64,000 bases of DNA from the NCBI GenBank assembly GCA_022749295.1, contig CP062007.1, positions 3,464,001 to 3,528,000 on the forward strand, written 5' to 3'. The notes beneath the pieces are model-generated. The model searched no databases, had not been told where the DNA came from, and saw only the letters and a program-made list of their open reading frames with translations. The DNA is from Flavobacteriaceae bacterium GSB9 (GTDB lineage Bacteria; Bacteroidota; Bacteroidia; Flavobacteriales; Flavobacteriaceae). The translations under genes were made by a program, and so were the position numbers. Positions 13,304-32,128 of this stretch are shown here, piece after piece (the first letter of the stretch is position 1; every line of letters starts with the position of its first letter).

Positions 13304-15325
13304 ATGAGATTGTCAAACTATATTCTTGCTATTTTTATAAATATCTATTTTTTTGGAGCGATTGCTGAAGCTCAAGTTCACGATAGGTCATGGCGACGTA
13401 TCGTTCACAAAAACGAAAGTGCTTGGTTTTCTTCTCAAGAAGCAAAAAGAATAGCTAATAACGTTTTGCTTTATCAGCGCGATATTGGGGGCTGGCCAAA
13501 AAACATCCAAATGCATGAGCAACTTTCCGAAAATAAAAAAGCTGAATTGCAGCAACAAAAAAGTAGTGTCTACGATGTCACAACAGATAACGGGGCAACT
13601 ATTCAAGAAATGCGTTTTTTATCTAAAATGTATCGTCAAATACCAGATGAAAAATATAAAGAAGCTTTTTTGAAAGGGCTCGATTATATTTTGGCAGCTC
13701 AATATAAAAATGGTGGCTGGCCCCAGTTTTATCCTTTGCGAGAAGGGTATTATACACATATCACCTACAATGACGATTCCATGGTTAATATTATGAATCT
13801 CCTAAAGGATATTAAGGATAATAATGGTAGCATTTCTATAGAGGTTTCAGATAATCTTCAGAAAAAAATTGAAAGTGCTTTTACTAGAGGGGTTGATTGT
13901 ATCTTAAAGACACAATACAAACAAAATGGCGTTTTAACAGCCTGGTGCGCTCAGCATGACGAGAAAACATTAGCGCCAGCAAAAGCAAGAAGTTACGAGC
14001 TGCCCTCATTAAGCGGAAAAGAATCAGCGGGCATTGTTTTGTTGCTCATGTCAATTGAAAATCCCACTGAAGCTATTAAAAATTCAATAACTAAAGCAGT
14101 TGAATGGTTTGAAAATGTAAAAATTAAGGGAATCAAACAGGAATATATTTTCAATGACCAAGGAGGGTTTGTTGACAAGAAGGTTGTTAAAGATAGTAAT
14201 GCCAAACCACTTTGGGCTAGGTTTATGGAGTTGGATGATAATACCCCATTTTTTTGTGATAGAGATGGTATAAAAAAAACTACAATGGCCGAGATTGGCT
14301 TGGAACGTAGGCGCGGCTATGCTTGGTACACAGACGATCCGCAGCAGGTCTTGGATTTTTATCCGAAATGGAAAGAGAAATATAAAAAACGCGTATCAAA
14401 TAAAAAACCAAATGATGAGTATAATATGGTTGTCGCCAAAGATGGAAGTGGCGATTTTATGACTATTCAAGATGCTATAAATGCCTCTAAGTCTTTTCCT
14501 TACCAGCGTGTTATAATCAATGTTAAAGATGGTGTATATAATGAAAAGGTACATGTTTACTCATGGAATACTCACGTTTCGCTCATTGGTGAAAGCAAAG
14601 ACAAAACCATCATTGTATATGACGATTTCTTCAAAAAAATAAATTTGGGAAGAAACAGTACGTTCCACACTTCGACGGTTTTGGTTGAGGGTGATGATTT
14701 TATGGCCAAAAACCTTACCATAAAAAATGTTTCGGGGCCTGTGGGCCAAGCAGTAGCGCTTTCGGTAAGTGCAAACCGTTGTTATTTTGAAAATTGTGCA
14801 CTAATAGGATATCAAGATACGCTTTACACAGAAGGCGAAGGGTTTAAGCAATATTTTAAAGACTGTCATATCGAGGGCGCTGTTGATTTTATTTTTGGGG
14901 GAGCAACGGTGTTGTTTGAAAATTGCAGGCTTCACAGTAAATCAGACTCTTATATTACAGCTGCTTCGACACCTAAAGGGCAAGAATTTGGTTACGTGTT
15001 TAAAAACTGTAAGCTTACCGCCGAAGAAAATGTAAAAAATGTTTATTTGGGGAGGCCTTGGCGGTTTAATGCCAAGACAGTTTTTATCAATTGTGAGATG
15101 GGAAGTCATATACGTCCCGAAGGTTGGCATAATTGGGGTAAAAAAGAAGCTGAGACACAGACTTACTATGCCGAATACAATTGTTCTGGAAAAGGTTATC
15201 AACCAGAAAAACGCGTGTTATGGTCGCATCAATTAAAAAAGCGTGAGGCAAAAAAGTATACTAAAAGAAATATTTTAACAAATCAAAACAATAAAACTAA
15301 ACTAAATTGGTATGAACGTTTTTAA
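13304..15325 (+). CDS. PL10 pectate lyase - CE8 pectin methylesterase fusion
   Basis: A 673-residue bifunctional enzyme that can demethylate and cut homogalacturonan. The signal peptide ends near IAEAQ. The PL10 (alpha/alpha)3-type lyase domain covers about 30-360 (NNVLLYQRDIGGWPKN, QYKNGGWPQFYP, HITYNDDSM, RSYELPSLSGKESAG, RRGYAWYTDDP). The CE8 beta-helix covers about 378-655 with intact GYQDTLY (Asp505), GAVDFIFGGA (Asp528) and LGRPWR (Arg584). The last 25 residues are basic and unstructured, without a T9SS tail, so it is probably periplasmic or exported by another route. It overlaps the CE12 gene by 14 bp, which implies translational coupling. It has its own operator-bearing promoter. Confidence 0.95.
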   Translation: MRLSNYILAIFINIYFFGAIAEAQVHDRSWRRIVHKNESAWFSSQEAKRIANNVLLYQRDIGGWPKNIQMHEQLSENKKAELQQQKSSVYDVTTDNGATIQEMRFLSKMYRQIPDEKYKEAFLKGLDYILAAQYKNGGWPQFYPLREGYYTHITYNDDSMVNIMNLLKDIKDNNGSISIEVSDNLQKKIESAFTRGVDCILKTQYKQNGVLTAWCAQHDEKTLAPAKARSYELPSLSGKESAGIVLLLMSIENPTEAIKNSITKAVEWFENVKIKGIKQEYIFNDQGGFVDKKVVKDSNAKPLWARFMELDDNTPFFCDRDGIKKTTMAEIGLERRRGYAWYTDDPQQVLDFYPKWKEKYKKRVSNKKPNDEYNMVVAKDGSGDFMTIQDAINASKSFPYQRVIINVKDGVYNEKVHVYSWNTHVSLIGESKDKTIIVYDDFFKKINLGRNSTFHTSTVLVEGDDFMAKNLTIKNVSGPVGQAVALSVSANRCYFENCALIGYQDTLYTEGEGFKQYFKDCHIEGAVDFIFGGATVLFENCRLHSKSDSYITAASTPKGQEFGYVFKNCKLTAEENVKNVYLGRPWRFNAKTVFINCEMGSHIRPEGWHNWGKKEAETQTYYAEYNCSGKGYQPEKRVLWSHQLKKREAKKYTKRNILTNQNNKTKLNWYERF

Positions 15326-16367: not shown

Positions 16368-16570
16368 TTTATTTAAATGAATTGCAGTGTTTTATGTTCT
16401 TAATTAAGTGTAGTGGAATTGGGTTTAATACTGGAAATCAATACCTAAGTTTCTAATACATGCCAAAAATAAATTTACTACCTCTAACTTTAAAACAATA
16501 TGCCTATGACAGATTAAAACTCAAACTCAATTCAAAAAAACTTACAAAAAGACAAACTAAACTAATAAGT

Positions 16571-19500
16571 ATGAAAACAAAAAATAATTTTAAGTATTAC
16601 TTTTTATTATTGGCACTGATGCTGTGCGTGCCAATATATGCCCAAAATACAGTGAATGTGTCCGGTACGGTTACAGATGAAGCGGGGGTGCCGTTACCAG
16701 GCGTTTCAATTATCATAAAAAACAGTTCTACGGGAACGACCACAGATTTTGATGGAAATTATTTAATTAGAACAGCGCCTAATGATATTTTAGTTTATAG
16801 CTATTTAGGATACAAAAAACAAGAAATTCCTGTTAACGGAAGGTCTCCAATAGACGTGACCATGGTTGAGGAAGCGGGCGTTTTAGATGAGGTTGTAGTA
16901 ATAGGTTACGGTAGTACAACAAGGCGAGATGTTACTGGAGCTATTGCCTCAGTTACAGGTGAAAAGATTGCAGGTGTACCTGTACCAGATGCCGCTCAAG
17001 CACTTCAAGGTAAATTACCAGGTGTTCGGGTTACAACACAAGATGGACGCCCAGGTGCCGATATTGCAATTAGAGTACGTGGTGGTGGTTCAATTACACA
17101 AAGTAATCAACCGCTTTTCATCGTTGATGGGTTTCCGGTAAATACCATTAGTAATATTCCAGGTAACCAAATTAAAAGTATAGATGTTTTAAAGGATGCA
17201 TCTTCTACAGCAATTTATGGTGCTCGTGGAGCTAACGGTGTTATCATTGTTACGACTAAAAATGGTGTTGCTGGAAAGACTAAGGTTACTTACGATGGAT
17301 ACACACAGTTTAGTGTTATACCAGAATATATTCCTGTTATGGATGGTTACGATTACATTGCTTATAACTGGGGCTATGCAGAGGCTATTGGTTCAAACTA
17401 TAGCGAGGCATGGGAAAAATTATGGGCGATTGGAGATTATCAAGGAAGCAATGACGCAGGAATAGATTATTATAGAAATGTAGAAAGTCGTGATTATACT
17501 AAAGAATTATATAATAGTGCTTTTTCGCACAATCATAACTTTAGTGTTTCTGGAGGAACTGAAGATACAAAATACTTAATATCAGCCAACCATCTAGATC
17601 AAGAAGGAAACAAAGTGGGGTCTTTTTACGAAAGAACAAACGCACAATTCAGATTGGATCAAAATTTGGGAGAAAAGTTAAAGCTATCTATTAATACACG
17701 TTTTCGTCAAGTTAAAAGAGGTGATAATGGAGGAAATTCAACCGCATATTATTTCCGTCCTATTAACTCCTCAGATATTTTAGGAGAACAGGATATAACG
17801 ATTAATACACAATTAGGTGATTACATTGGTATTTTACAAGATAGATATAGTCCTGTTGCCATTGCCAATGATACAGAGAACGACAGAGTCAGTCGTGGTT
17901 TAGTGGCTAACACATCGCTAGGGTGGGATGTTATACCTGGTCTTACTGCCAAGACCGACCTAAGTTTAGCGTTAAGTTGGGACAACAATAAATCATGGAC
18001 AGGGCCTACGGCTAGTAATTATTTGGATAATGAAGGAAATCCAACCTTTGGCGGGGATGCAAATGTAAGTCAAGGTCAAGGATGGAACTACCGATGGGTG
18101 AATACTTTAAATTACGAAGTTCAAGGGTTAGGAGAGGATCATAAAGTTAGTGCGTTAGCTGGTTATGAGGTAGCCGATTCTGGTTCTGAGTCTGTGTCTG
18201 TATCAGGAGAGCAGTACCCTGTTTCCTTCAATGCAGAGCGTGCTTGGAACAATATGAATTCCTATAATAGGGTGGAAGGCTCTGAATTATTTTCGTTAAA
18301 TACAAGTGGTGGAGTACCAAATCGCCTTCAATCTATATTTGGTCGTCTTAATTATGGATACAAAGGCAAGTATTTATTAACGGGAACATTTCGTGCAGAT
18401 GGTTCTTCGAAATTTGCATTAGGTAATCAGTGGGGGTATTTTCCGGCAGGTGCAATCGCATGGAGAGCGTCTGATGAAGACTTCCTTAATGACGTGAGTT
18501 GGATAGATGATTTGAAAGTTCGTTTTTCTTATGGTTCAGTGGGTAATGATGGCATTAGTGCTGAATTATGGAAACAAAGCTGGTCTCCAACAACGGTGAG
18601 ATGGTCATTGAACGATGTAAGACAACAAGGCTACGTTCCAGGTTCATTACTTGCTAACCCAGATTTAAAATGGGAAACAACTATTACAAGAAACTTAGGT
18701 GTGGATTTCCAGTTATTTGGAGGTAAATTAAGTGGTACTGTTGAAGTTTATAAAAATACCGTTAAAGATTTACTCCTAGTAACGCCAACATCTCCATTGA
18801 GTGGATTTGCGTTTACAATGGATAACATTGGTCAAACAAGTAACAAGGGTATAGAATTGTCTTTGAATACGGATGTTGTGAGATCTGAAGATTTTAATTT
18901 GTTGGCAAGCTTTAACATAAATATCAATAAAGGAAATGTCGATAAGTTAGATGAAAGTGTAAACGGAACTTATAGTTCTGGTTTTGGTGGGGTATACTTC
19001 TACCCAAGAAATGATTATTTCTTAGAGGAAGGAAAACCCGTAGGGTTAATGCGTGGATTTGTTCATGATGGGTGGTATACCACAGATGATTTTGATTATG
19101 ATTCAGCTAATCAAACTTATACAACGAAAGAGGGGGTGCCATCTTATCAAGCTGGTGTTCTTGGTACAGTTTATGGTACTAGAGATAACAAGCCAAGTGG
19201 TCAATCCGAATATCCTGGCGTTCAAAAGCTGAAAGATCTTAATGGAGATGGTGTTATTAATGATGAGGACATCACAGTTATTGGTGATGCCAACCCGGCC
19301 CACACAGGTGGTTTTAGTCTGAATGGTAACTATAAGGCTTTCGATTTTACCTTTGATTTCACGTGGAGTGTTGGCAATGATATTTATAATGCTAACCATG
19401 TCAACGCTTACTTGGGAAGCAAGGAGCAAGGCTTGTATAGAAACAGGTTACAAGAGCTTGCTGGACACTACAAAATTTACGATATTGTAAACGGACAATT

Positions 19501-19885
19501 AACAAAAGTTGTTGAGCCAGCGGCTTTGGATGCACTTAATGCGAACGCAAGCACTTTTCTGCCTTATCCAGAAACTGCTGTAGCGTCTTCTTTTGGTATC
19601 GAGGACGGTTCTTTCCTTAGGCTGAACACATTTACTTTAGGATATACAATTCCTCAAAGTATAATTGAAAAACTAGGAATAAACAGGTTCCGTGTTTACG
19701 GGTCGGTTTTTAATGCCTTTACTATAACGGGTTATGACGGTTTTGATCCTGAAATTAACGTTCAAGAAAGTCGTGGAATTAATGATAATGCAAATAACCA
19801 AGGGGGGTATCCAACGCCAGGACTTGATTTGAATGCTTATCCGCGCCCACGTTTGTATACGTTCGGTTTAAATATTGAATTTTAA
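16571..19885 (+). CDS. susC: SusC-like TonB-dependent transporter (main pectin operon)
   Basis: Outer-membrane importer of 1104 residues. The frame is open from 16460, but the ATG at 16571 starts directly on a standard signal peptide (MKTKNNFKYYFLLLALMLC, ending IYAQ), so I use it. A carboxypeptidase-regulatory-like domain (VSGTVTDEAGVPLPGVSI, TTDFDGNYLI) precedes the plug (VVIGYGSTTRRDVTGAIAS, LQGKLPGVRVTTQDG, IDVLKDASSTAIYGARGANG) and the barrel, which ends RPRLYTFGLNIEF. An acidic loop LKDLNGDGVINDEDITVIG near residue 890 parallels the SusC at 685-4005, marking them as related. It is the first gene of an operon that probably runs to 32128. Confidence 0.95.
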   Translation: MKTKNNFKYYFLLLALMLCVPIYAQNTVNVSGTVTDEAGVPLPGVSIIIKNSSTGTTTDFDGNYLIRTAPNDILVYSYLGYKKQEIPVNGRSPIDVTMVEEAGVLDEVVVIGYGSTTRRDVTGAIASVTGEKIAGVPVPDAAQALQGKLPGVRVTTQDGRPGADIAIRVRGGGSITQSNQPLFIVDGFPVNTISNIPGNQIKSIDVLKDASSTAIYGARGANGVIIVTTKNGVAGKTKVTYDGYTQFSVIPEYIPVMDGYDYIAYNWGYAEAIGSNYSEAWEKLWAIGDYQGSNDAGIDYYRNVESRDYTKELYNSAFSHNHNFSVSGGTEDTKYLISANHLDQEGNKVGSFYERTNAQFRLDQNLGEKLKLSINTRFRQVKRGDNGGNSTAYYFRPINSSDILGEQDITINTQLGDYIGILQDRYSPVAIANDTENDRVSRGLVANTSLGWDVIPGLTAKTDLSLALSWDNNKSWTGPTASNYLDNEGNPTFGGDANVSQGQGWNYRWVNTLNYEVQGLGEDHKVSALAGYEVADSGSESVSVSGEQYPVSFNAERAWNNMNSYNRVEGSELFSLNTSGGVPNRLQSIFGRLNYGYKGKYLLTGTFRADGSSKFALGNQWGYFPAGAIAWRASDEDFLNDVSWIDDLKVRFSYGSVGNDGISAELWKQSWSPTTVRWSLNDVRQQGYVPGSLLANPDLKWETTITRNLGVDFQLFGGKLSGTVEVYKNTVKDLLLVTPTSPLSGFAFTMDNIGQTSNKGIELSLNTDVVRSEDFNLLASFNININKGNVDKLDESVNGTYSSGFGGVYFYPRNDYFLEEGKPVGLMRGFVHDGWYTTDDFDYDSANQTYTTKEGVPSYQAGVLGTVYGTRDNKPSGQSEYPGVQKLKDLNGDGVINDEDITVIGDANPAHTGGFSLNGNYKAFDFTFDFTWSVGNDIYNANHVNAYLGSKEQGLYRNRLQELAGHYKIYDIVNGQLTKVVEPAALDALNANASTFLPYPETAVASSFGIEDGSFLRLNTFTLGYTIPQSIIEKLGINRFRVYGSVFNAFTITGYDGFDPEINVQESRGINDNANNQGGYPTPGLDLNAYPRPRLYTFGLNIEF

Positions 19886-19898
19886 AAAAAAAGAAATT

Positions 19899-22019
19899 AT
19901 GAAAAAACTAATGTATTTAATGCTCTCTGTAGCTTTTATAGTGAATACGGGGTGCGAGAAAGATTTTCTGGTGGTACAAAATCCATCTAGTGTTGATGAA
20001 GACTTCGTTTTTGGCTATCCAGAAGAAGCTGATAAAGTTTTAGCTGGTATGTACGATATTTGGCATGACCTTGACAAAAGGCTTTTTTATGACGTATCCT
20101 CTGTAGGGTCTGATTCGGAGCATCATCCAGAACCTTACACTGCACAGGCTAGACATATTCCTATGGGGCTTTTTCCAGTGCCCTATCCTATTGATGACGA
20201 TGCCCACAGAGATACTTGGCAAGAGTCTTATTTATTAATTAACCGGGCTAATGTGGTAATGAAATCAATAGAGGGAAAACAAGAGTATCAAAGTGCGGTA
20301 GCTTCTGGAGAGAAGAACGCATGGACGCATCTTTATGGTGAGGCTCTATGCCACAGGGCAACTAATTACAAGCTTTTAATCAAGTATTTTGGCGATGTGC
20401 CTTATTTTGATTATCCAATTAAAACTGCAGCTCAAACAGATACCTTAGGCTATACCATTAGAGACCATATTTATGATAACGAAATTGCGGCTCTCAAAAA
20501 ATCAGTACCTCTGATGTACAACTTGGGCGAACAAGGTGTTACAGCTGAAACCTTTTCTCGTGTTTATGGAAATCAATTGATTGCCAGATTAGCGTTTGAC
20601 GCTGCTGGTTACCAATTGCGTCGAACAGATTTTGATTATGAGGGTATATCATTTGACCAATGGGGTCAAGAAGATGCTCAGAATCAATGTGTATATGTTA
20701 GAAATAGTAATTGGCAAAGCTTCATGCAAACGGCTAAGGAATTCTATCTAAAAGTTGTTAATGATTCTGGGTCGGCTTATTTAATAGAAACAGATGATAG
20801 AGGTGCAGGTTTTGATAACCCATTTCAATTAAACTTTCAAAAGCTTTTAGATTTAGAGGTTAGTCCAGAATCCTTGTTTGAATGCGGTTATACGCGAACT
20901 CAAAATTCAGATTGGCCATATTCTTGGGGGCGTCCTTCAGGAGGTGCTGGTTCTAACGATCGTCCTAACAAATGTTATGGGCAAGGTCGTATAAACCCTT
21001 ATTACTATTATTCAGACTTTGATCCAGATGATAAGCGTCGTGAAATAACTGCTTGTATTACTGGTAATACAGGTAAAGCTGGTGAAATACTTATGAGTTG
21101 GGTTAGAGGTAACCGTGAAAGAGGTGGCTTGGCGAGTAATAAATTTGATGAAGCTAGAATGTCAGACCCTTATATCCCTAGACAACGTCAGTCAGGTGTA
21201 AATTGGCAACAGGTGCGTATGGGTAGTGTGATGCTTTATTTGGCTTATGCCGCTGCTGCAACAGGTGATGAAGCAACTGCTAAAACATACTTTAAAAAAG
21301 TACGTGGTAGAGCGTTTTCTGCTGCAGATCAAGCAACTAAGGTTAATGCTTATGTTGATGGCTTGACTGGTCAAGCTTTATTGAAAGGTATAGAAATGGA
21401 ACTTAAGTTAGAGACTGGAGGCGAGGGTGTTACACGATGGGATATGGTTTTATTTGGTACAATGCCAGAGAGAATACAAACCATGCGTGATAACATGAGA
21501 GACATGATTAATGGCATTGAAAGCGATGGATATTATACGTTTGATAATGGTGATCAAATTTCGGCTTACATTTATACTAAACACGTTTCAATAAAGGATG
21601 TTGACCCAAGTTTAGATTTGTTGACAACTCAAACGCCAGAAGGACTTTCTGAATCAGATTCTAGATACCCTGTATTGGTACCCGGCTGGAGAGGTACAAA
21701 TAACGGATGGGCAGACTATCTTACTACCTTATCTCCAGATTTGCAAAAAAACCATTTGGCAATTAGGGGTTTGTATAGATATATTGATCCTGCAAGTGCT
21801 GAAGGTTTAGCTCTTTTGGCTGATGGTTACGAACTCTCTCCTTGGGGTATAAACCTTGTTGAAGCTAAAGCAGAGTACACAGATGATCTTTTTAAAGGAT
21901 ATCCTGATGGTTCTTATGCTGCGGGAGTACCACCTCGTTATATTATGCCGTTATCAGGTGATGCTTTACGTACTTCAAATGGAAATTTAACCCAAGGATA
22001 CGGACATGCTTCTGAGTAG
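19899..22019 (+). CDS. susD: SusD-like glycan-binding lipoprotein
   Basis: A 706-residue partner of the preceding SusC, 13 bp downstream. The lipobox VNTGC is followed by EKDFLVVQNPSSV. The body has the SusD-type helical repeats (ESYLLINRANVVMKSI, HLYGEALCHRATNYKLLIKYFGDVPYFDYP) and the C-terminal region (GIEMELKLETGGEGVTRWDMVLFG). It is longer than most SusD proteins (about 500-650). The ATG at 19899 has GAAATT just upstream and gives a clean lipoprotein signal; an ATG at 19875 would overlap SusC and add a poor N-terminus. A terminator-like hairpin follows. Confidence 0.94.
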   Translation: MKKLMYLMLSVAFIVNTGCEKDFLVVQNPSSVDEDFVFGYPEEADKVLAGMYDIWHDLDKRLFYDVSSVGSDSEHHPEPYTAQARHIPMGLFPVPYPIDDDAHRDTWQESYLLINRANVVMKSIEGKQEYQSAVASGEKNAWTHLYGEALCHRATNYKLLIKYFGDVPYFDYPIKTAAQTDTLGYTIRDHIYDNEIAALKKSVPLMYNLGEQGVTAETFSRVYGNQLIARLAFDAAGYQLRRTDFDYEGISFDQWGQEDAQNQCVYVRNSNWQSFMQTAKEFYLKVVNDSGSAYLIETDDRGAGFDNPFQLNFQKLLDLEVSPESLFECGYTRTQNSDWPYSWGRPSGGAGSNDRPNKCYGQGRINPYYYYSDFDPDDKRREITACITGNTGKAGEILMSWVRGNRERGGLASNKFDEARMSDPYIPRQRQSGVNWQQVRMGSVMLYLAYAAAATGDEATAKTYFKKVRGRAFSAADQATKVNAYVDGLTGQALLKGIEMELKLETGGEGVTRWDMVLFGTMPERIQTMRDNMRDMINGIESDGYYTFDNGDQISAYIYTKHVSIKDVDPSLDLLTTQTPEGLSESDSRYPVLVPGWRGTNNGWADYLTTLSPDLQKNHLAIRGLYRYIDPASAEGLALLADGYELSPWGINLVEAKAEYTDDLFKGYPDGSYAAGVPPRYIMPLSGDALRTSNGNLTQGYGHASE

Positions 22020-22120: not shown

Positions 22121-23353
22121 ATGACATTTAAAAAAAACAATTTATTAAGAAGTATTTTGATTGTATGTGTTCTGTTTCTTTCAAATAGTTGTAAACAAAA
22201 AAAGCAAAGTCAAACCAATTTAAATGAAAATCAAGAAGCTGTCATTCCAGATTCCCTAAAATGGTCGGAACGTATGGCTTTATCTGTTATTAAACGTTAT
22301 CCAGAAGCTTGGCAAATTGATGACAGAACAGAAACTAAGTGGGATTATAAAATCGGAATGTTCTGTTTGTCGTTACAAAAACTTTATGATGTTACGGGAA
22401 AGGACATTTATTTCAATTATGGAAAAGATTATGCTGATACCATAATTAATTCAAAAGGCCAAATAAAAAACTACAAACTAAATGACTATAACATAGACAA
22501 TATCAATGCAGGTAAAATTCTATTTGATATTTATGAAACCACTCAAAATCCAAAATTCCTTACTGCTCTCAAAACCCTGAGAAAGCAATTGGAAACACAT
22601 TTAAGAACACCATCGGGAGGATTTTGGCATAAAAGAATATATCCAAATCAAATGTGGCTTGATGGTTTATATATGGGACAACCATTTTATGCACGCTATA
22701 ATACCGAATTTGAAAATGGTGAAAAGTTAGATGATGTTGCTCACCATTTTAAATTACTACATGACCACACGTTAGACGAAGTAACCGGTTTGTATTTTCA
22801 TGCATGGGACGAAAGTAAACAAATGGACTGGGCCAATAAAGAAACAGGAACGGCACCAAACTTTTGGCTACGGGCGCTTGGATGGTATGCTATGGCCTTG
22901 GTTGATACCTTGGATTATTTCCCTGAAGACCACAAAAAAAAACAGTTGCTAATTGATTATTTAAATCAATTGGCAGAAGCTATTGAGAAATATCAGGACG
23001 AAACAGGCTTGTGGTATCAAGTGCCTAATATGCCTGATAAAGAGCCTAATTATTTAGAGGCTTCAGGCTCGTGCATGTTAACTTATGCTTTAGCAAAAGG
23101 AGCAAACAAAGGGTATTTGCCAGAAAATTACCTTAATGTTGCCAATAAAGGTTTTAACGGCATAGTTAATGAGCTTATAAAAGTTGATGATAATGGAGAA
23201 GTCCATATCACGCAAGTTTGTAAAAGCGCTGGTTTAGGAGGAAACCCATATAGAGATGGTTCTTTTGAATACTACATGAGTGAGCCTATTTTAACAGATA
23301 ATTCTCATGGTCTAGGGCCATTTGTGTTAGCTGCAATTGAACTAAACAGATAA
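22121..23353 (+). CDS. GH105 unsaturated galacturonyl hydrolase
   Basis: Removes the unsaturated uronate that pectate lyases leave at the non-reducing end of oligogalacturonides or rhamnogalacturonan oligomers. The 410-residue lipoprotein (FLSNSC) has the (alpha/alpha)6 GH105 fold: YNIDNINAGKILFDIYE, FWHKRIYPNQMWLDGLYMG with Asp181 at the position of the YteR catalytic Asp, FWLRALGWYAMALVDTLDY, LEASGSCMLTYALAKG and a C-terminal DGSFEYYMSEPILTDNSHG. It acts after PL1 and PL10, probably in the periplasm. It starts the metabolic part of the operon and sits 3 bp before the permease gene. Confidence 0.93.
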   Translation: MTFKKNNLLRSILIVCVLFLSNSCKQKKQSQTNLNENQEAVIPDSLKWSERMALSVIKRYPEAWQIDDRTETKWDYKIGMFCLSLQKLYDVTGKDIYFNYGKDYADTIINSKGQIKNYKLNDYNIDNINAGKILFDIYETTQNPKFLTALKTLRKQLETHLRTPSGGFWHKRIYPNQMWLDGLYMGQPFYARYNTEFENGEKLDDVAHHFKLLHDHTLDEVTGLYFHAWDESKQMDWANKETGTAPNFWLRALGWYAMALVDTLDYFPEDHKKKQLLIDYLNQLAEAIEKYQDETGLWYQVPNMPDKEPNYLEASGSCMLTYALAKGANKGYLPENYLNVANKGFNGIVNELIKVDDNGEVHITQVCKSAGLGGNPYRDGSFEYYMSEPILTDNSHGLGPFVLAAIELNR

Positions 23354-23356
23354 GCC

Positions 23357-24787
23357 ATGGATCCAATTTTTATAATCCTTACAGGAACTGCTGTTGTATT
23401 ATTTTGCATTTTAGTGCTAAGGCTTCATGCCGTAATTTCCTTGCTTTTAGCAGCATTGGTAACTGCTTTTTTAACATCGCCCGATCTCATCTATGCTTTT
23501 GGTATTAGTACTGGAATGTCAGAACAAGAAGCTTTAAAGTTTTCACAAGTAAGTCTGGGTAAAAGATTAGGTGTAGCTTTTGGTAATACTAGTGGGAAAA
23601 TAGGAATATTGATAGCCTTAGCCTCCATTATAGGAACTTCATTAATGCGAAGCGGTGGTGCCGAAAGAATTGTTAGAAGTTTGTTAGGTGTTTTTGGTAA
23701 AAAGAATAGTTCAGTAGCGCTCTTGTTTAGTAGTTTTACTTTGGCAGTTCCTGTGTTTTTTGATACCGTTTTTTATTTGATGATTCCTATTGTGAAATCT
23801 TTAGGAATTAAAAACCCAAGGAAATTTGGGCTATATTTAATGGCGGTAATTGCCGGTGGTGTGATGGCACATTCATTAATCCCTCCAACACCTGGTCCTT
23901 TGTTTGTTGCTGAAACAATGAATATAGATTTAGGTGTTATGATGATAGGAGGTTTGGGAGTAGGAGTCATAACAATTTTGGCAGGTTACGGTTATGCAAA
24001 ATGGGCAAATTTACGGTGGGACTTGCCAATGCGAAGTACACCCGATATTAGTGTTGAAGAACTAAAGCAAATTTCTGAAACTCAAAATAAAGACCTTCCC
24101 AACCTTTGGTTGTCTCTTTTACCAGTTATCCTTCCAATTATTTTAATTACGGGAAACACATTAACTAATATGTTGTTTGAAGGCAGAACAGGCCTAACAT
24201 CAACTCAAGAAAACCTTGAAGTGTTTTTTTCAACATTGGGAGATCCTAATATAGCACTATTTGTTTCTGCGATAATAGCGATGTACTTGATGTACTCACG
24301 AGAATCGGATATTAAAATTTTTAAAAAATATATCTATGAGGCATTAACAAGTGCGGGTATGATAATATTGATTACTTCTGCTGGAGGTGCATTTGGTCAA
24401 ATGCTTCAACAAACTGGAATAGGCATTAGAATCCAAGAATTATCGGCAAATTATCAAATGGCTATCTTACCTATGGCCTTTGTAATTACCGCAATTGTGA
24501 GAAGTGCTCAAGGTTCGGCAACTATCGCAATGGTAACAACTATTGGTATTATTGGAGGTGTTGCAGATGCAGGTTTGGCTTTCCATCCTGTTTATATTGC
24601 TTTGGCAATAGGCTGTGGATCTAAGATTTTTGCTTGGATGAACGATAGTGCATTTTGGATAATTACAAAAATGTCTGGCATGGAAGAAAAAGAAACCATT
24701 CAGCATTTTTCAATATTATTAATGGTCATGGCAATTGCTGGATTAATAGCTGTTATGATTGGTTCAAAATTTTTACCTTTTGTGTAA
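23357..24787 (+). CDS. GntP-family gluconate/sugar-acid permease
   Basis: Inner-membrane proton symporter of 476 residues with 12 or more hydrophobic segments over its whole length. GntP features include FGNTSGKIGILIALASIIG, RIVRSLLGVFGKKN, VPVFFDTVFYLMIPI, AHSLIPPTPGPL, VRSAQGSATIAM and GCGSKIFAWMNDSAFW. GntP members carry gluconate, fructuronate or related acids. Its place between GH105 and GarD suggests uptake of galacturonate, galactarate or a keto-deoxy uronate; the exact substrate is inference. In many Bacteroidota pectin loci an ExuT-type MFS carrier does this job. Confidence 0.93.
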   Translation: MDPIFIILTGTAVVLFCILVLRLHAVISLLLAALVTAFLTSPDLIYAFGISTGMSEQEALKFSQVSLGKRLGVAFGNTSGKIGILIALASIIGTSLMRSGGAERIVRSLLGVFGKKNSSVALLFSSFTLAVPVFFDTVFYLMIPIVKSLGIKNPRKFGLYLMAVIAGGVMAHSLIPPTPGPLFVAETMNIDLGVMMIGGLGVGVITILAGYGYAKWANLRWDLPMRSTPDISVEELKQISETQNKDLPNLWLSLLPVILPIILITGNTLTNMLFEGRTGLTSTQENLEVFFSTLGDPNIALFVSAIIAMYLMYSRESDIKIFKKYIYEALTSAGMIILITSAGGAFGQMLQQTGIGIRIQELSANYQMAILPMAFVITAIVRSAQGSATIAMVTTIGIIGGVADAGLAFHPVYIALAIGCGSKIFAWMNDSAFWIITKMSGMEEKETIQHFSILLMVMAIAGLIAVMIGSKFLPFV

Positions 24788-24802: not shown

Positions 24803-26329
24803 ATGAAAAATAATATTTTAATAAAGACTTCGGTTGAGGATAATGTGGGTATTGTGGCCAATGAAGAGGGGATGCAAAAGGGAACTTTTGTAAATGAAGG
24901 TTTTTCCCTTTTGGAATATGTTCCCAATGGGCACAAGGTGGCTTTGCAAGATATTGATGAAGGGCAGCCAATAATAAGGTACACTGAGGTAATAGGTTAT
25001 GCAAATAAAGACTTGAAACAGGGGCAGTGGGTGAATGAAACAAATATGATGTTGCCTAAACCACCTGAATTAAAGTTCTTGTCAATGCCAAAACCTAATA
25101 CTACAAGTTTAGAACCATTGGAAGGCTATACTTTTCAAGGGTATAAAAATGATGATGGAACTGTAGGTACAAAAAATGTTTTGGCCATATCTAATAGTGT
25201 ACAGTGTGTTGCAGGACTTACGGAGTTTGTGGTTAAAAAAATTAAAGCGGAACTACTTGGTCAATATCAAAATGTTGATGATGTCGTAGGCCTTACACAT
25301 AGTTACGGTTGTGGTGTAGCAATAAATGCACCTGCTGCTATTGTGCCAATTCGAACAATTCAAAATATAGCTGTTAACCCAAATTTTGGGGGCGAAATTA
25401 TGGTTTTGGGCCTGGGCTGTGAAAAATTACGTCCAGAACGCCTTGTTAGTAATGAAGAAGAGTCTGGAGATTCTATTACCTATATGCAAGATGAATCTTT
25501 TCATGGATTTAACGAGATGGTTGATGGTATTTTGGAAACAGCGAAGATTCATTTAGAAAAATTAAATAAACGGAAACGGGAAACCTGTCCAGCTTCAGAT
25601 TTAGTTGTGGGTATGCAATGTGGTGGCAGTGATGCGTTTTCTGGCTTAACGGCTAATCCGGCGGCCGGTTTTGCAGCCGATTTAATAGTTAGGGCTGGAG
25701 GCAGTGTGATGTTTTCTGAAGTCACCGAAGTAAGAGACGCCATTCATTTACTAGTCCCTAGGGCTGAAACACCAGAAGTGGCCAAAGCCCTAATTCAAGA
25801 AATGGCTTGGTACGACGATTACTTATTACAAGGAAGTGTAGATAGGAGCGAGAACACCTCGCCAGGAAACAAAAAGGGCGGTTTAAGTACCATTGTGGAA
25901 AAAGCTTTGGGGTCAGTAGCAAAATCTGGGACCTCTCCAATTGTTGATGTGCTAAAGCCAGGAGAAAAAATTAGAAAAAAAGGATTGAATTTTGCGGCAA
26001 CACCAGCAAGCGATTTTGTTTGTGGTACCTTGCAACTTGCAGCAGGAATGAACGTTCATTTATTCATGACAGGAAGAGGAACCCCTTATGGTTTGTCTAT
26101 GGTACCGGTTATAAAAGTTGGAACAAATTCAAAATTGAGTAATCGATGGTTCGATTTAATCGATTTTGATGCAGGTAAAATCGCAACCGGAGAAAAAACA
26201 ATTGAGGAAGCTGGCTGGGATTTGTTTCATATGATTTTGGATGTTTCCAGCGGCAAAAAACAGGTTGCTTGCGATATTTTAGGGATACATAACGATTTGG
26301 TTCTTTTTAACCCAGGACCATTAACTTAG
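24803..26329 (+). CDS. garD: Galactarate dehydratase (GarD type)
   Basis: Converts galactarate to 5-dehydro-4-deoxy-glucarate in the cytoplasm. At 508 residues it resembles Escherichia coli GarD along its whole length: an N-terminal SAF-like domain ([36 protein letters not shown]), then the dehydratase core ([89 protein letters not shown]) and a C-terminus [20 protein letters not shown] ... [19 protein letters not shown]. Conserved Cys residues suit iron binding. Altronate dehydratase UxaA is a relative, but the [12 protein letters not shown] and [11 protein letters not shown] blocks are GarD-like. The next two genes carry the following steps to 2-oxoglutarate. Confidence 0.88.
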
Positions 26330-26354: not shown

Positions 26355-27278
26355 ATGAATTCAAACTTTCAAAAAATAAAGAGTGCTTTAGGTGACGGAC
26401 TTTTATCTTTTCCTGTAACCGATATGGATGACAACGGACAGTTTAATAAAACCACTTTTGCAGATCGTTTAGAGTGGTTTATTACGCACGAGGTTTCTGC
26501 AATATTTGTTGCAGGGGGCACAGGTGAGTTCTTTTCACTGTCAAAAGAGGAATATAAAAACATAGTTAAAATAACAAATGAAACCGTAAAGGGACGTGTC
26601 CCGACCGTTTCAAGCGTGGGTAGAAGTATCCCAGAAGCTGTTGAGTTTGCGTCAATAGCAGAGGAAGCTGGGATTGATGCATTGCTTTTAATGCCGCCTT
26701 ATCTTACGGAGTGTGCTAAAAGTGGTGTGTACGAGTATGCTAAAACAATCATCCAAAGTACCAACTTGCCAGTAATTTATTATAATCGTGCAAACGGAAT
26801 TTTACCAGTAGAGTATCTAAAGAAATTGGCAGACGATTGTCCTAATTTCATTGCTCTAAAAGATGGCACAGGAAATATGGAAGCCTTAAATACAACTATA
26901 AAAACCATTGGTGACCGTTTAACCTACATTGGCGGTGTTCCAACAGCCGAAATTATATCAGAAGCTTACTTGTCTATTGGTGTAAACACGTATTCATCTG
27001 CTGTATTTAATTTTGTTCCCGATATGGCCAACCATTACTACAAGGCACTTAGGGCAGGTGATAAGAAAACCGTTGATTTAATTTTAAAAGAATTTTTCAT
27101 CCCCTTTGTTAAATTGAGAAGCAATGCCCAAGGTTATGCTGTAAGTTTAATTAAAGCAGGGGCTGAATTAATAGGTAAAAGAGCAGGTAATGTGCGTGCG
27201 CCTTTGCCACAGCCTAACGAAAATGAAGTAGAGCAGTTGAAAAAATTGATAAAAAAAGCTGAAACTTTAAAAAAGTAA
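26355..27278 (+). CDS. kdgD: 5-dehydro-4-deoxyglucarate dehydratase
   Basis: DHDPS/NanA-superfamily enzyme of 307 residues that dehydrates and decarboxylates 5-dehydro-4-deoxyglucarate to 2-oxoglutarate semialdehyde. Seen: FPVTDMDDNGQFN, IFVAGGTGEFFSLS, GIDALLLMPPYL, PVIYYNRANGILP, the Schiff-base lysine in FIALKDGTGN (Lys169) and GVNTYSSAVFNFVPDMA. The phrases VAGGTGEFFSL and YYNRANG are typical of KdgD rather than of dihydrodipicolinate synthase. It lies between GarD and the semialdehyde dehydrogenase, the pathway order, with 25- and 5-bp gaps. Confidence 0.92.
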   Translation: MNSNFQKIKSALGDGLLSFPVTDMDDNGQFNKTTFADRLEWFITHEVSAIFVAGGTGEFFSLSKEEYKNIVKITNETVKGRVPTVSSVGRSIPEAVEFASIAEEAGIDALLLMPPYLTECAKSGVYEYAKTIIQSTNLPVIYYNRANGILPVEYLKKLADDCPNFIALKDGTGNMEALNTTIKTIGDRLTYIGGVPTAEIISEAYLSIGVNTYSSAVFNFVPDMANHYYKALRAGDKKTVDLILKEFFIPFVKLRSNAQGYAVSLIKAGAELIGKRAGNVRAPLPQPNENEVEQLKKLIKKAETLKK

Positions 27279-27283
27279 AAATT

Positions 27284-28819
27284 ATGAGTAGTGACAATAT
27301 ATTTCATGGCATAAACGCTTTTACCAATGAAAAATTGGATGGCGATTTTGTTAATGCCACAGAAGAACAAATTAATGAAGCTGTACAAAAAGCTGTAAAA
27401 GCGTTTGATATCTATAGAAAGACAGATAAAGACAGTATAGCAAGCTTTTTGGACCAAATAGGAGAGGAAATACTGAATTTAGGAGACGCTTTATTAGAAA
27501 GGTGCCATTTAGAAACAGCCCTCCCTTTAGGTAGATTACAAGGGGAAAGAGGAAGAACAGTAAACCAACTTAAACTTTTTGCTAGTGTGGTTAGGGAGGG
27601 ATCTTGGGTTGATGCAAGAATTGATAAATCTAATCCTGATAGAACACCATTGCCTAAGGCAGATATTAGGCAAATGTTGCTGCCATTAGGTCCTGTGGCC
27701 GTTTTTGGTGCCAGTAATTTCCCGTTAGCATTTTCGGTTGCAGGCGGTGATACAGCATCTGCTTTAGCGGCTGGTTGCCCAGTTGTTTTCAAAGGCCACC
27801 CAGCGCATCCAGGAACTTCAGAAATGGTTTTCAATGCCATTCAAAAGGCTATAAAAAAATCGAATATGCCAGAGGGTGTTTTTTCTTTAATACACAGTAA
27901 TTCTAATAAGCAGGGTGAGTTGTTGGTAAAACATCCAGAAATAAAAGCAGTTGGTTTTACAGGGTCTTTCAACGGCGGAAAAGCCTTATTCGATTATGCT
28001 AATAGTAGGTCAGAACCTATACCAGTGTTTGCTGAAATGGGTAGTACAAACCCTGTGTTTATTTTGCCTCAAGCACTAAAGGAGAAAGGAGACGAAATCG
28101 CTTCAGGTTTAGCGGGTTCAATTACTTTGGGCGTTGGTCAATTTTGTACAAATCCAGGTTTGTCATTTATTGAGAAATCTGAAAAAGTCAATGCCTTTTA
28201 TGATAAATTAGGTGAAAGTATTAGTGAGATTTCAGCAGGGAATATGCTTACTTCGGGAATTTCAAAAGCCTATAACGAAGGTCTTAATCGAATTGCTTCG
28301 TTGAAAAATGTAATTGAAATAGCAAAGGGAAAGAGTGAAGAAAACATTAATGTAGGCATTCCAAAGGTTTTTAAAACAACAGTATCTGGATTAAAAGAGC
28401 ACGAATCGTTGGCCGAAGAAAACTTTGGTCCTTCAAGTATATTGGTTGAAGCATCGTCGAAAAATGAAGTCATTGAAGCCGCTAAAGAATTGGAAGGCCA
28501 TTTAACCGCTACTATTTTTGGAACCGATGAAGATTTAAAGAACTACAAAGAACTTTTTGATATTTTGGAGAAAAAAGTTGGCCGTGTAATAATTAATGGG
28601 TATCCAACAGGAGTAGAAGTGTGTCATTCAATGGTGCATGGAGGTCCATATCCTGCTACAACCGCACCGCAATCCACTTCAGTAGGTACAAACGCCATCA
28701 AACGTTTTGTAAGGCCTGTATGTTTTCAGGATTACCCAGACGAGTTTTTGCCGGATGCCCTTAAAGCGGAAAATAAGCTCAATATATGGCGTCTTGTAGA
28801 TGGAAACTTGGAAAAATAG
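27284..28819 (+). CDS. 2-oxoglutarate semialdehyde dehydrogenase
   Basis: NAD(P)-dependent aldehyde dehydrogenase of 511 residues oxidising 2,5-dioxovalerate to 2-oxoglutarate, which enters the TCA cycle. Seen: LGPVAVFGASNFPLAFSVAG, CPVVFKGHPAHPGTSE, GFTGSFNGGKALF, catalytic Glu251 in FAEMGSTNPVF and catalytic Cys288 in GVGQFCTNPG. The GASNFPLAFSVAGGDTASA and KGHPAHPGTS blocks mark the ketoglutarate-semialdehyde subgroup. It is the third step of the galactarate route with the two preceding genes. Confidence 0.92.
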   Translation: MSSDNIFHGINAFTNEKLDGDFVNATEEQINEAVQKAVKAFDIYRKTDKDSIASFLDQIGEEILNLGDALLERCHLETALPLGRLQGERGRTVNQLKLFASVVREGSWVDARIDKSNPDRTPLPKADIRQMLLPLGPVAVFGASNFPLAFSVAGGDTASALAAGCPVVFKGHPAHPGTSEMVFNAIQKAIKKSNMPEGVFSLIHSNSNKQGELLVKHPEIKAVGFTGSFNGGKALFDYANSRSEPIPVFAEMGSTNPVFILPQALKEKGDEIASGLAGSITLGVGQFCTNPGLSFIEKSEKVNAFYDKLGESISEISAGNMLTSGISKAYNEGLNRIASLKNVIEIAKGKSEENINVGIPKVFKTTVSGLKEHESLAEENFGPSSILVEASSKNEVIEAAKELEGHLTATIFGTDEDLKNYKELFDILEKKVGRVIINGYPTGVEVCHSMVHGGPYPATTAPQSTSVGTNAIKRFVRPVCFQDYPDEFLPDALKAENKLNIWRLVDGNLEK

Positions 28820-28842
28820 AAGCACAAAATAGAAAAAAGAAA

Positions 28843-30201
28843 ATGGTTAAAAAACAATTTTTTGCTCTAGTTTTAATTTTGGGAGCACAATTTATTTTTG
28901 CCCAAAGGCAGTTTGATAAGGATTCAATGATTAGTAGCATTGAAGCACGTGTTAAATTACCTGTTATTCCCGATTACAAAGTTTCAATAACAAAATTTGG
29001 AGTAAAGGGAAACGGCACAAAGAATTGTAAACCTGCTTTCGATAAGGCAATGAAGCGTTGCGAAAAGCGAAATGGAGGTGTTATTGTTGTCCCACCAGGC
29101 GAATACTTAATAAACGGACCGATTCATTTTGTTAGTAATACAAGGTTGCACTTAGAAAAAGGAGCAAAACTTATTTTTGGCTCTAGCCCAAAAGATTACC
29201 CATTGGTTTTAACAAGTTGGGAAGGTACCAGTCTTTATAATTACAGCCCCATGATATATGGTGTTAATGTTACTAATGTGGCCATTACAGGTGAAGGAAC
29301 AATAGACGGAGAGGGACACGGTTTGTGGGCTACTTGGAAACCTATCCAAGATAAGGGGCAGCAATTAAGCAGGAAAATGAATCACAACCAAACTCCTGTT
29401 GAAGACCGTGTTTTAGGAGAAGGTTATTATTTAAGGCCGCAACTTGTACAGTTCGTGAACTCTAAAAATATTCTTATTGAAGACGTAAAAATAGAAGATG
29501 CTCCATTTTGGTGTGTTCATATTTTAAAAAGTAAGAGTATAACGCTAAGAGGTTTAAAATATGATGCCCACAACAAAAATAATGACGGGATCGATATTGA
29601 AAATTCTAGTGATGTAATTATTGAAGATATCGATTTTAACAATGGAGACGATAATGTTGCCATAAAGGCAGGAAGAGACCATGATGGGAGAGCAAATTCT
29701 AAGCAGCCTTCAGAAAATATTATCGTAAGAAATTGTCGGTTTAAAGGGTTGCACGCTTTAGTGATAGGTAGTGAAATGTCTGCAGGTGTGCGTAATGTAT
29801 TAGCCTACAATTGTAAGGCTAGCGGATATTTAAAACGAGGCGTTTATCTAAAGACAAATTCTGATAGAGGCGGTTACATAAAAGATGTTTATGTTCAAAA
29901 TATTGCATTCTCAAATGTTGAAGATGCTATTTATATGACCGCTAATTATCACGGGGAAGGTGGGGGGCTGTTTCCTTCAAAAATATCAAATATTACATTA
30001 TCAAATTTAAGTTTTACCGATGTTTCTAATGCTGCTATTGTTATTGAGGGATATCCAGAATATAAGGTGGAAAATGTTCTACTCGATAATATAATTATAG
30101 ATTCAGCCAAGAACGGAATGACCTTGTCTAATACAAAAAATGTCATTTTTAATGAGGTAGTCATTGGTGAGAAACAAGGTGTGCCAAGTTCAGTTAAATA
30201 A
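28843..30201 (+). CDS. GH28 polygalacturonase (exo-type)
   Basis: Hydrolyses alpha-1,4-galacturonosyl bonds. From the ATG at 28843 the protein has 452 residues with signal peptide MVKKQFFALVLILGAQ ending IFAQ; an upstream in-frame ATG at 28786 would overlap the dehydrogenase gene and hide the signal peptide. The right-handed beta-helix has the GH28 set: NNDGIDIENSSD (Asp248), GDDNVAIKAG (Asp269/Asp270), LVIGSEMSAGV (GSE in place of the endo-type GHG) and RGVYLKTNSDRGGY (Arg-x-Lys type site). The GSE motif and the YNYSPMIYG segment near the N-terminus are typical of exo-acting periplasmic members. No T9SS tail or lipobox, so probably periplasmic. Confidence 0.93.
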   Translation: MVKKQFFALVLILGAQFIFAQRQFDKDSMISSIEARVKLPVIPDYKVSITKFGVKGNGTKNCKPAFDKAMKRCEKRNGGVIVVPPGEYLINGPIHFVSNTRLHLEKGAKLIFGSSPKDYPLVLTSWEGTSLYNYSPMIYGVNVTNVAITGEGTIDGEGHGLWATWKPIQDKGQQLSRKMNHNQTPVEDRVLGEGYYLRPQLVQFVNSKNILIEDVKIEDAPFWCVHILKSKSITLRGLKYDAHNKNNDGIDIENSSDVIIEDIDFNNGDDNVAIKAGRDHDGRANSKQPSENIIVRNCRFKGLHALVIGSEMSAGVRNVLAYNCKASGYLKRGVYLKTNSDRGGYIKDVYVQNIAFSNVEDAIYMTANYHGEGGGLFPSKISNITLSNLSFTDVSNAAIVIEGYPEYKVENVLLDNIIIDSAKNGMTLSNTKNVIFNEVVIGEKQGVPSSVK

Positions 30202-30265
30202 ATAATCATATATGTCGGATTGATTTTGATTTTCTAATATATTGATTATTAAAAATTCAGGTGTC

Positions 30266-32128
30266 ATGAGTAGTGTTTTTATTAAAACAGGTTTTTTAGT
30301 AATGCTTGTGGTTTTTCCAATGTTTACTTATGCGCAAAATGGAAAAGCGTTTTCAGCTGAAAAAAAAATATTAGTCGGTACACCCATGAGTCCCCCAACA
30401 TGGGCTTTACTGGAACGTGAATTGTTGGACACTAATGTTGAAGCATGCCGTAAATTCTTTGATAAATATTTTGATGATCGAGGCTATTTGTTAGCGGTTG
30501 AACGGTGGGGGGCAAATGACGGGCCAGATGATGCTATTGAAAACGTTGCTGATTGGCCTATTCTTCATGCCATAGGGGCTTCAAACGACATTTTGCATCT
30601 TTATAAAAAAGCTTGGGAAGGCCATCTAAAACAATATACCTCGGCTAAAACTGTGGAAGTTCCGTTTGCAAGAGATGGTATGTATTATAAAGAGTTTCCG
30701 GTTATGATGGATTGGATGCATAACGGCGAAGGGTTGCGCGTGTTTAATTTACAAGGACTGTCCGACCCTTATGATTTAGATTTTGAAAAGCGCGTGAGAC
30801 GATTTGCTGGTTTTTACATGAACGAAGACCCCGGAGCACAAAATTACGATTCGAAACATATAATTATCAAAAGCATGTTTAATGGTAGCCGGGGCCCACT
30901 AATGAGAAAGGCTACGAGTTTGGATTGGGCAGGAGACCGAATTCAAATTAAAAACCGTTTTAAAGCAGGGCATGGAGAGCGCAATTATGAGGAAATGTTG
31001 TCGCATTTCAAGGATTACACAGATGTGGTGGGAGATCATCCTCAAAATTTGAGTGCTACTAGTTTGGCAGCGAACGCCTTTATGCTAACCGGTGAACAGA
31101 AATATAAAGATTGGTTAGTTGAGTACGCTGATGCATGGTTGGAACGCATGGATAAAAATGGAGGTATTATTCCTAGTAATGTTGGGTTAGATGGAAAAAT
31201 AGGAGGCGCTACTGATGGTAAATGGTACGGGGGTACGTATGGTTGGGCTTTCTCTCCGATAGTTCCGCAGACAGGGGAGATAGTACATCGAACTCGTGTA
31301 TACAGAGGGTTTGTGGGGTTTAGTAATGCGCTGCTGTTAACAGGAGATTTTAAATATATTAATGCTTGGGGAGATATGTTGGATAAAATAAATTCCAATA
31401 AAAAAACTATAAATGGTAAAGTTCAATATCCACATATGTTTGGAGATGATGGATGGTATGCCTACAGAACAAGACCAGTCCAGTGGAGCGCTTTGGAATG
31501 TTATTTTTTTACATTTTCTCCCAGTGCACGAGCACGGTTTAATAATAATGATTGGATTGATTTTCTGGAAGGTAATAATCCCGATTATCCAGAACTTGCT
31601 TTGCGTTCTGATTTGGAAAGAATAAAGAGAAAACACTCTGCTATGTTGAATGATATGACTACTCCAGACACACGGTTAGCAGATGACCCCATGAAATACA
31701 ACCCAGTTTCAATTGAGGCACTACGTCAACTTATGATGGCTGGATTGGACCCAGGTAGAGGCGGTGGTCCATTACATGCGCGTTTACGATATTTTGATCC
31801 AGAAAGGAAACGGGCTGGTGTCCCGGATGATGTAGCAGCTTTGATTGATGAAATTTCGGCCGGTCATGTTGCTGTTAATTTGGTTAATATTAATCAGCTA
31901 GAATCGCGAGAGGTTGTTCTTCAAGTGGGAAGTTATGCCGAGCATCAATGTAGCCATATTGAAATAGGAAGACGTAAAGTTCAAATTAATAATTCTAGTT
32001 TTTGGGTTAAATTGTTACCGGGAGCTGGTACAAGAATAACTATTTTTACAAAGCGTTATGCTAACCGCCCAACTCTAAGTTTTCCTTGGGATAGAACTCC
32101 CTATATCGAAACAGGTAATGTTGAGTAA
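30266..32128 (+). CDS. Exported 620-residue protein of unknown family, probable helical-toroid enzyme
   Basis: I do not recognise a named family. The chosen ATG (30266) gives a signal peptide (MSSVFIKTGFLVMLVVFPMF, ending TYAQ); a TTG at 30242 would lengthen it. The body is alpha-helical with evenly spaced aromatic-rich segments (VADWPILHAIGASNDILHLY, MMDWMHNGEGLRVFN, LAANAFMLTGEQKYKDWL, TYGWAFSPIVP, GFSNALLLTGDFKYINAW, GDDGWYAYR), the pattern of (alpha/alpha)6-toroid glycosidases and lyases. The C-terminal 100 residues look like a beta domain. Conserved-looking Asp, Glu, His and Trp residues would suit a catalytic cleft. It is the last gene of the pectin operon, after GH28, and meets araR tail to tail with a 6-bp gap. 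A role on unsaturated or branched pectic oligosaccharides is inference. Confidence 0.8.
   Translation: MSSVFIKTGFLVMLVVFPMFTYAQNGKAFSAEKKILVGTPMSPPTWALLERELLDTNVEACRKFFDKYFDDRGYLLAVERWGANDGPDDAIENVADWPILHAIGASNDILHLYKKAWEGHLKQYTSAKTVEVPFARDGMYYKEFPVMMDWMHNGEGLRVFNLQGLSDPYDLDFEKRVRRFAGFYMNEDPGAQNYDSKHIIIKSMFNGSRGPLMRKATSLDWAGDRIQIKNRFKAGHGERNYEEMLSHFKDYTDVVGDHPQNLSATSLAANAFMLTGEQKYKDWLVEYADAWLERMDKNGGIIPSNVGLDGKIGGATDGKWYGGTYGWAFSPIVPQTGEIVHRTRVYRGFVGFSNALLLTGDFKYINAWGDMLDKINSNKKTINGKVQYPHMFGDDGWYAYRTRPVQWSALECYFFTFSPSARARFNNNDWIDFLEGNNPDYPELALRSDLERIKRKHSAMLNDMTTPDTRLADDPMKYNPVSIEALRQLMMAGLDPGRGGGPLHARLRYFDPERKRAGVPDDVAALIDEISAGHVAVNLVNINQLESREVVLQVGSYAEHQCSHIEIGRRKVQINNSSFWVKLLPGAGTRITIFTKRYANRPTLSFPWDRTPYIETGNVE

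Follow-up and report, generated by a model that had tools for sequence, protein, structure and literature searches.

The operon and its last gene

In this work we analysed a gene that lies at positions 30266..32128 on the + strand of the window (the whole stretch of DNA under analysis, 64,000 nucleotides) and that closes an operon of nine same-strand genes with no more than about 100 bases between neighbours. The operon begins with a SusC-type TonB-dependent receptor (16460..19885, all nine genes being on the + strand), followed by a SusD-type protein (19875..22019), a GH88/GH105 protein (22121..23353; PF07470, 378.7 bits), a GntP-family permease (23357..24787; over the cut-off of PF02447, with 248.9 bits on TIGR00791 for a cut-off of 292.75), the galactarate dehydratase GarD (24803..26329; TIGR03248, 841.7 bits, cut-off 730.85), the 5-dehydro-4-deoxyglucarate dehydratase KdgD (26355..27278; TIGR03249, 379.1 bits, narrowly over the cut-off of 373.95), an aldehyde dehydrogenase (27284..28819; best NCBIfam score 107.3 bits for a cut-off of 770) with a putative alpha-ketoglutarate-semialdehyde role, and a GH28 protein (28786..30201) whose nearest NCBIfam model is that of alpha-D-galacturonidase BT4155 (303.9 bits, cut-off 800). 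The next gene after the operon is convergent and encodes an NrtR/AraR-type regulator. Upstream of the operon, a GDSL esterase is encoded, as is a PL10-CE8 fusion: at 13304-15325 (+), a single protein carries a PL10-type pectic acid lyase domain and, after it, a pectinesterase domain. Downstream is an arabinan-type locus, within which a frame of 191 amino acids at 48100-48934 (+), with a lipoprotein-like start and no Pfam match, looks by eye like the N-terminal part of a GH51 arabinofuranosidase that then breaks off; it is possibly a broken gene.

Because GarD and, narrowly, KdgD exceed curated cut-offs, the operon encodes galactarate degradation, and the GntP permease and the aldehyde dehydrogenase, which fall short of the cut-offs of their specific models, probably take part in the same sugar-diacid pathway. 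The initial annotation had given every other gene of the operon a clear pectin role; pectinases are indeed present, but the permease, GarD, KdgD and the aldehyde dehydrogenase are better ascribed to a galactarate pathway. Also encoded in the genome are UxaC and, at a distance of 3 kb, a second GarD/UxaA-superfamily protein that scores under the GarD cut-off, which suggests an isomerase route for galacturonate. No uronate dehydrogenase was recognised by eye among the 21 PF01370 proteins of the genome. A haloarchaeal Udh-like query reached 22.9 bits in this genome, compared with 63-82 bits on solved uronate dehydrogenases; the same query scores 173 bits on the Azf model (cut-off 400), and is hence an ambiguous probe.

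The last gene encodes 620 amino acids from its ATG, or 628 in the full frame that opens at a TTG at 30242. Relatives occur at 19 loci, with best segments 36-71% identical, so that 30266-32128 (+) is, by sequence conservation, a real coding sequence. Residues 1-23 (30266..30334) have the appearance of a signal peptide, and the N-terminus, MSSVFIKTGFLVMLVVFPMFTYAQN, was judged by eye to be of the Sec type. Structure models place an (alpha/alpha)6 barrel at residues 34-503 (30365..31774) and a C-terminal eight-strand beta domain at residues 507-597 (31784..32056). These features agree with the initial annotation, which had described an exported 620-residue protein with a signal peptide at the end of a pectin operon. 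The GC content of the gene is the highest among the operon genes (0.403 vs 0.343-0.396), a weak sign.

Relatives and absence from known families

The unclassified protein has no match in Pfam or NCBIfam at E values up to 10. When the 18 members of the first alignment were compared with Pfam, a single member gave a single match, to a DUF at E 0.082, and none of the lyase family models of Pfam matched any of the 18. A search of PDB sequences with the unclassified protein returned one weak match, 6ex6 (E 0.011), which we dropped because it fades as the profile broadens (E 0.029 and 0.36 with profiles). The absence of a family motif noted initially is thus confirmed, and the profile search proposed at that stage brought up no strong match to a characterised family in Pfam, NCBIfam or PDB. 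Four family assignments were rejected by profile. PF07470, the profile of GH88/GH105, is absent in 18/18 members at E 0.1 and from the unclassified protein at E 10, and hhalign gave 0.3% against GH88/105 and 4.1% (E 0.01) against six GH88/105 proteins from the same genome. Neither PF07944 nor PF20736 nor PF20737 is matched, and hhalign to the GH127 protein of the window gave 0.6%, which speaks against membership of GH127; for GH76 and for the AGE / cellobiose 2-epimerase family, there is likewise no match to the Pfam profile of the family. No published account of the unclassified family was found, as far as literature searches on pectin, galactarate, six-hairpin and GH154 topics reach.

One scan of genome contigs yielded 19 relatives, 18/19 of them aligned over most of their length, from Bacteroidota, Verrucomicrobiota, Planctomycetota, Acidobacteriota, Gemmatimonadota, Chloroflexota, Sphingobium and one bacterium without a stated phylum. 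The gene was recovered in 18 of the source genomes of these relatives, several of which carry further loci. Plasmid records added 17 matches among 72,556 (12 haloarchaeal, 2 alphaproteobacterial and 3 actinobacterial); the 12 of these 17 genes that carry an annotation are all called 'hypothetical protein'. The family is thereby found in eight bacterial phyla plus haloarchaea. Within the taxonomic family of the window, the gene occurs in 1/298 other genomes, and in the phylum sample it was found in 0/394 other genomes with the protein query and again in 0/394 with a 33-row profile. Two loci have unusual gene structures: in an acidobacterial genome the family gene is present as two or three neighbouring copies or pieces (L018, 8941-12810), and on a plasmid of Natrinema sp. 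SYSU A 869 (L121, 12001-13862) the family gene lacks a CDS annotation and is matched as two separate pieces, so that it may be broken.

The family tree, built from 45 rows and rooted for drawing only, divides with full support into a group of 22 bacterial rows and one of 23 rows to which the haloarchaea belong. The window protein, in the former group, lies beside a Cyclobacteriaceae protein (support 84), and its nearest relatives, L020, L017 and L002, are 66-71% identical to it. The predicted compartment changes within the family: the protein is probably exported in the window and an Asticcacaulis member has a Tat-like signal peptide, while the 11 haloarchaeal proteins examined start, by eye, at the domain and without a signal peptide, and are apparently cytoplasmic.

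Gene neighbourhoods of the family

Evidence for a pectin link outside the window comes from the haloarchaeal plasmids. A pectate lyase or GH28 gene lies within 12 kb of the family gene in 8/12 haloarchaeal records by annotation and in 7/12 by tblastn, vs 0/12 controls, and DHDPS-family genes lie within 12 kb in 6/12 records vs 0/12 controls. The control was one 50 kb stretch per plasmid, taken from the far side of the same 12 plasmids and twice as long as the case stretches. The one-sided Fisher values (0.0023 for pectate lyase/GH28 and 0.0069 for DHDPS-family genes) are a guide only, because the 12 records are relatives of one another with some syntenic loci, because the tblastn queries were drawn mostly from the case loci, and because the control stretches are longer. 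The haloarchaeal DHDPS protein that was tested scores 114.3 bits on the KdgD model for a cut-off of 373.95 and therefore need not be KdgD; one haloarchaeal locus has a 2,5-dioxovalerate dehydrogenase (858.7, over a cut-off of 750). A simple replacement of GH88/105 by the family in haloarchaea was considered and rejected, as PF07470 is present on 9/13 plasmid records; in this search, which covered plasmids, PF07470 was never within 12 kb of the family gene on the 13 records. In one study, pectin did not support the growth of haloarchaeal isolates that have pectin genes (PMC9726719), a finding that counts against our reading. The excerpt used here of a 2011 genome paper describes the pectate lyase cluster of Haloterrigena turkmenica with no mention in it of the family gene (PMC3102087).

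In bacteria, a close homologue of a protein encoded in the window is found at just one of the 19 close loci, that of Sphingobium scionense (L014), and it is KdgD (46%); hits at three others are at 22.7-28.0%. This KdgD scores 432 bits, and the locus also encodes a TIGR00893 transporter (416.4, over a cut-off of 395). In Asticcacaulis, kdgD, a TIGR00893 transporter gene (425.5) and the family gene are side by side, and in Sphingobium V4 a transporter gene (66% identical to that of Asticcacaulis) directly precedes the family gene, with KdgD (72%) encoded 2.5 kb after it. These three alphaproteobacterial loci form one tree lineage as far as tested, in which L014 and Asticcacaulis group together. 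At an acidobacterial locus (L005), the family gene is directly followed by a PL11 gene and then by a GH106 gene, and some 3.4 kb upstream of it lies an apiosidase-like gene. The theme common to these loci is the breakdown of a uronic-acid polymer together with an oxidative, aldarate-type route, and the pectin link proposed for the window gene finds support in the haloarchaeal loci with their matched control and in the acidobacterial locus with PL11 and GH106.

The pectin link is not general. The nearest relatives (L020, L017 and L002) have none of the pectin genes of the window nearby, and the family is therefore not strictly a pectin family. One explanation would be that the enzyme really acts on some other polymer or sugar acid, sulfated or glucuronate-rich for example, and that the pectin operon recruited the gene or merely carries it. 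The patchy occurrence of the gene in its own lineage, the position of the nearest relatives outside pectin loci, the sulfatase-like genes near relatives in 14/40 loci (a raw count, judged by eye) and, weakly, the GC content would all be accounted for in this way. We nevertheless find this explanation rather unlikely, as pectin, RG-I or KdgD neighbours recur in other lineages, and in haloarchaea they do so against a matched control.

Neighbours of the enolase superfamily (MR_MLE) were set aside as evidence, because the host genomes are rich in such genes. One protein cluster of this kind, 9 genes in all, is spread over 8/40 loci, 6/9 being confirmed by Pfam, for an expectation of 3.8 over 36 loci (P 0.094 for 7, 0.042 for 8 and 0.017 for 9), an excess over background that is at best marginal; on the haloarchaeal plasmids, MR_MLE genes (dgoD included) were seen by eye near the family gene in 6/12 cases vs 3/12 controls. 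PF13378 has 67 matches in 2.2 Mb in the Chloroflexota genome of L011 (G688) and 89 in 7.1 Mb in G686. Two other associations were observed. In L073, L074, L075, L082 and L083, a partner gene of about 333-345 amino acids directly adjoins the family gene (6 copies in 5 loci); the two partners of this subclade that were tested both match Sortilin-Vps10 (beta-propeller), and the pair looks like a conserved unit. In L023 and L077, an Amidohydrolase_2-like gene (by Pfam match in L023, by eye in L077) and a similar gene of about 380 amino acids are found beside the family gene.

Predicted fold, candidate function and known systems

AlphaFold models of the full-length protein (pLDDT 80.5, pTM 0.85) and of the barrel only (pLDDT 77.8, pTM 0.85) both have six helical hairpins, the former with the eight-strand domain in addition, so that an (alpha/alpha)6 barrel, as proposed in the initial annotation, is likely, here followed by a beta-sandwich. 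When compared with solved folds, the full-length model is closest to 2-epimerases (Z 15.4), GH76 (14.5), GH88 (13.3-13.6) and GH105 (12.8), and the barrel-only model to GH76 (15.1), GH88 (14.4), GH47 (14.1) and 2-epimerases (about 13). All of these are sugar-active enzymes or relatives with a barrel. The values are near ties, with rmsd of 5-6 A, and Z values of this size can arise for mostly helical models through a common arrangement; consequently, no fold family is singled out. The comparison with GH88 and GH105 structures that had been called for thus recovers the barrel, and the likeness to these families stands for the fold but not for membership by profile. Among the 50 structure rows listed for each comparison there was no heparinase-type lyase and no GH154 chain, which excludes neither, and a viral fold library gave nothing useful.

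Nine residues of the barrel, D88, E92, D149, H152, E155, N193, D195, D257 and N261, are invariant in all 45 aligned relatives, which comprise bacteria and haloarchaea in two deep clades; W283, Y287, W291 and W327 are also invariant in 45/45, and R176 is conserved in 43. Active sites of (alpha/alpha)6 enzymes lie at N-terminal helix ends, and several of the invariant residues fall within or immediately ahead of the N-terminal ends of the model helices 87-92, 154-166 and 259-275, although the loops that hold them are the least certain parts of the models. The fold, the invariant carboxylates and the change of compartment fit an enzyme that acts on short uronides. We put at about even chances the proposal that the family consists of hexuronide-cleaving enzymes, probably hydrolases, which feed an oxidative uronate/galactarate route. 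The enzyme of the window, predicted to be exported, would hydrolyse galacturonides left over by the other pectin enzymes, with catalysis by invariant carboxylates (candidates are D88, D149, D195 and D257, together with E92, E155 and H152). The acid set free would enter the cell through the co-transcribed GntP permease and, as galactarate or after conversion to it, would be degraded by GarD, KdgD and the aldehyde dehydrogenase, with alpha-ketoglutarate as the end product. In this scheme we infer the hydrolysis, the substrate, the roles of the residues, the parts played by GntP and the aldehyde dehydrogenase, and the cellular site of the enzyme.

The same invariant set could serve a different chemistry. 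An (alpha/alpha)6 enzyme with an Asn/His/Tyr/Arg centre could cleave short uronides by beta-elimination, as an oligogalacturonide lyase with a fold unlike that of PL22; lyases often combine an (alpha/alpha)6 fold with a beta-sheet part, N193, N261, H152 and Y287 are invariant with R176 nearly so, and the neighbours are pectin genes. The failure of every Pfam lyase model on the 18 members and the many invariant carboxylates, which would suit acid/base hydrolysis, make us regard a lyase as improbable. Still less probable, in our opinion, is an enzyme that isomerises or epimerises a uronic acid or sugar, akin to the members of the N-acylglucosamine 2-epimerase superfamily. The 2-epimerases do head the fold lists of the full-length protein (Foldseek E 8.1e-05, in addition to the Z value above), and the haloarchaeal members are without a signal peptide and among sugar-acid genes; however, the barrel alone ranks GH76 and GH88 above the 2-epimerases, export in the window is unsuited to a monosaccharide isomerase, and H152 is the single invariant barrel histidine, while these epimerases use a pair.

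A hexuronide hydrolase would make the unclassified family the founder of a new carbohydrate-active family. The initial annotation saw in this gene the best candidate of the operon for a new enzyme family; it is indeed a fair candidate, although the family is not strictly one of pectin loci.

A more specific substrate can be imagined. According to one paper, plant oxidases convert the reducing end of oligogalacturonides to galactaric acid, and the fragments feed some microbes poorly (PMC7773757); another reports that two bacteria grow on oxidised oligogalacturonides, its section 10 naming no gene (PMC11992967). A galactarate pathway with no visible uronate dehydrogenase, in a genome that has UxaC, would be explained if the operon eats oxidised (galactarate-ended) oligogalacturonides, the candidate enzyme clipping off terminal galactaric acid for GntP, GarD and KdgD. 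We give little credence to this idea at present, but the galactarate link makes it a testable matter which enzyme lets bacteria use oxidised oligogalacturonides.

Several known systems resemble the proposed hexuronide-cleaving family in part. GH154, named in the initial annotation, has been reported, together with GH88, from plasmid loci of haloarchaea that serve glycosaminoglycans (PMC13260240); the comparisons made for the unclassified family cover Pfam, NCBIfam and PDB sequences. GH127 (PF07944) combines a barrel with beta domains at a similar total length (Foldseek E 2.0e-04), but its TM-scores with the model are only 0.25. The GH76 alpha-1,6-mannanases top the barrel-only list (Z 15.1, 279 residues, 5.2 A). 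They use a consecutive catalytic Asp-Asp; in the unclassified family D88 is invariant and D89 nearly so, at positions that may or may not correspond. There is no Pfam match, however, and the Z values of other families are tied with theirs. Cellobiose 2-epimerase and the AGE superfamily share the (alpha/alpha)6 barrel (Z 15.4 over 319 residues, 5.8 A). AGE-type 2-epimerases use a His pair, whereas H152, which may or may not correspond to one of the pair, is the only invariant barrel histidine in the 45 sequences, and the family has in addition its beta-sandwich. GH88/GH105 (PF07470) have the barrel and the same kind of gene neighbourhood, and use a catalytic Asp pair, to which the invariant D88 and D149 may or may not correspond in position; the unclassified protein differs from them in its C-terminal beta-sandwich, and a true GH88/105 is encoded in the same operon.
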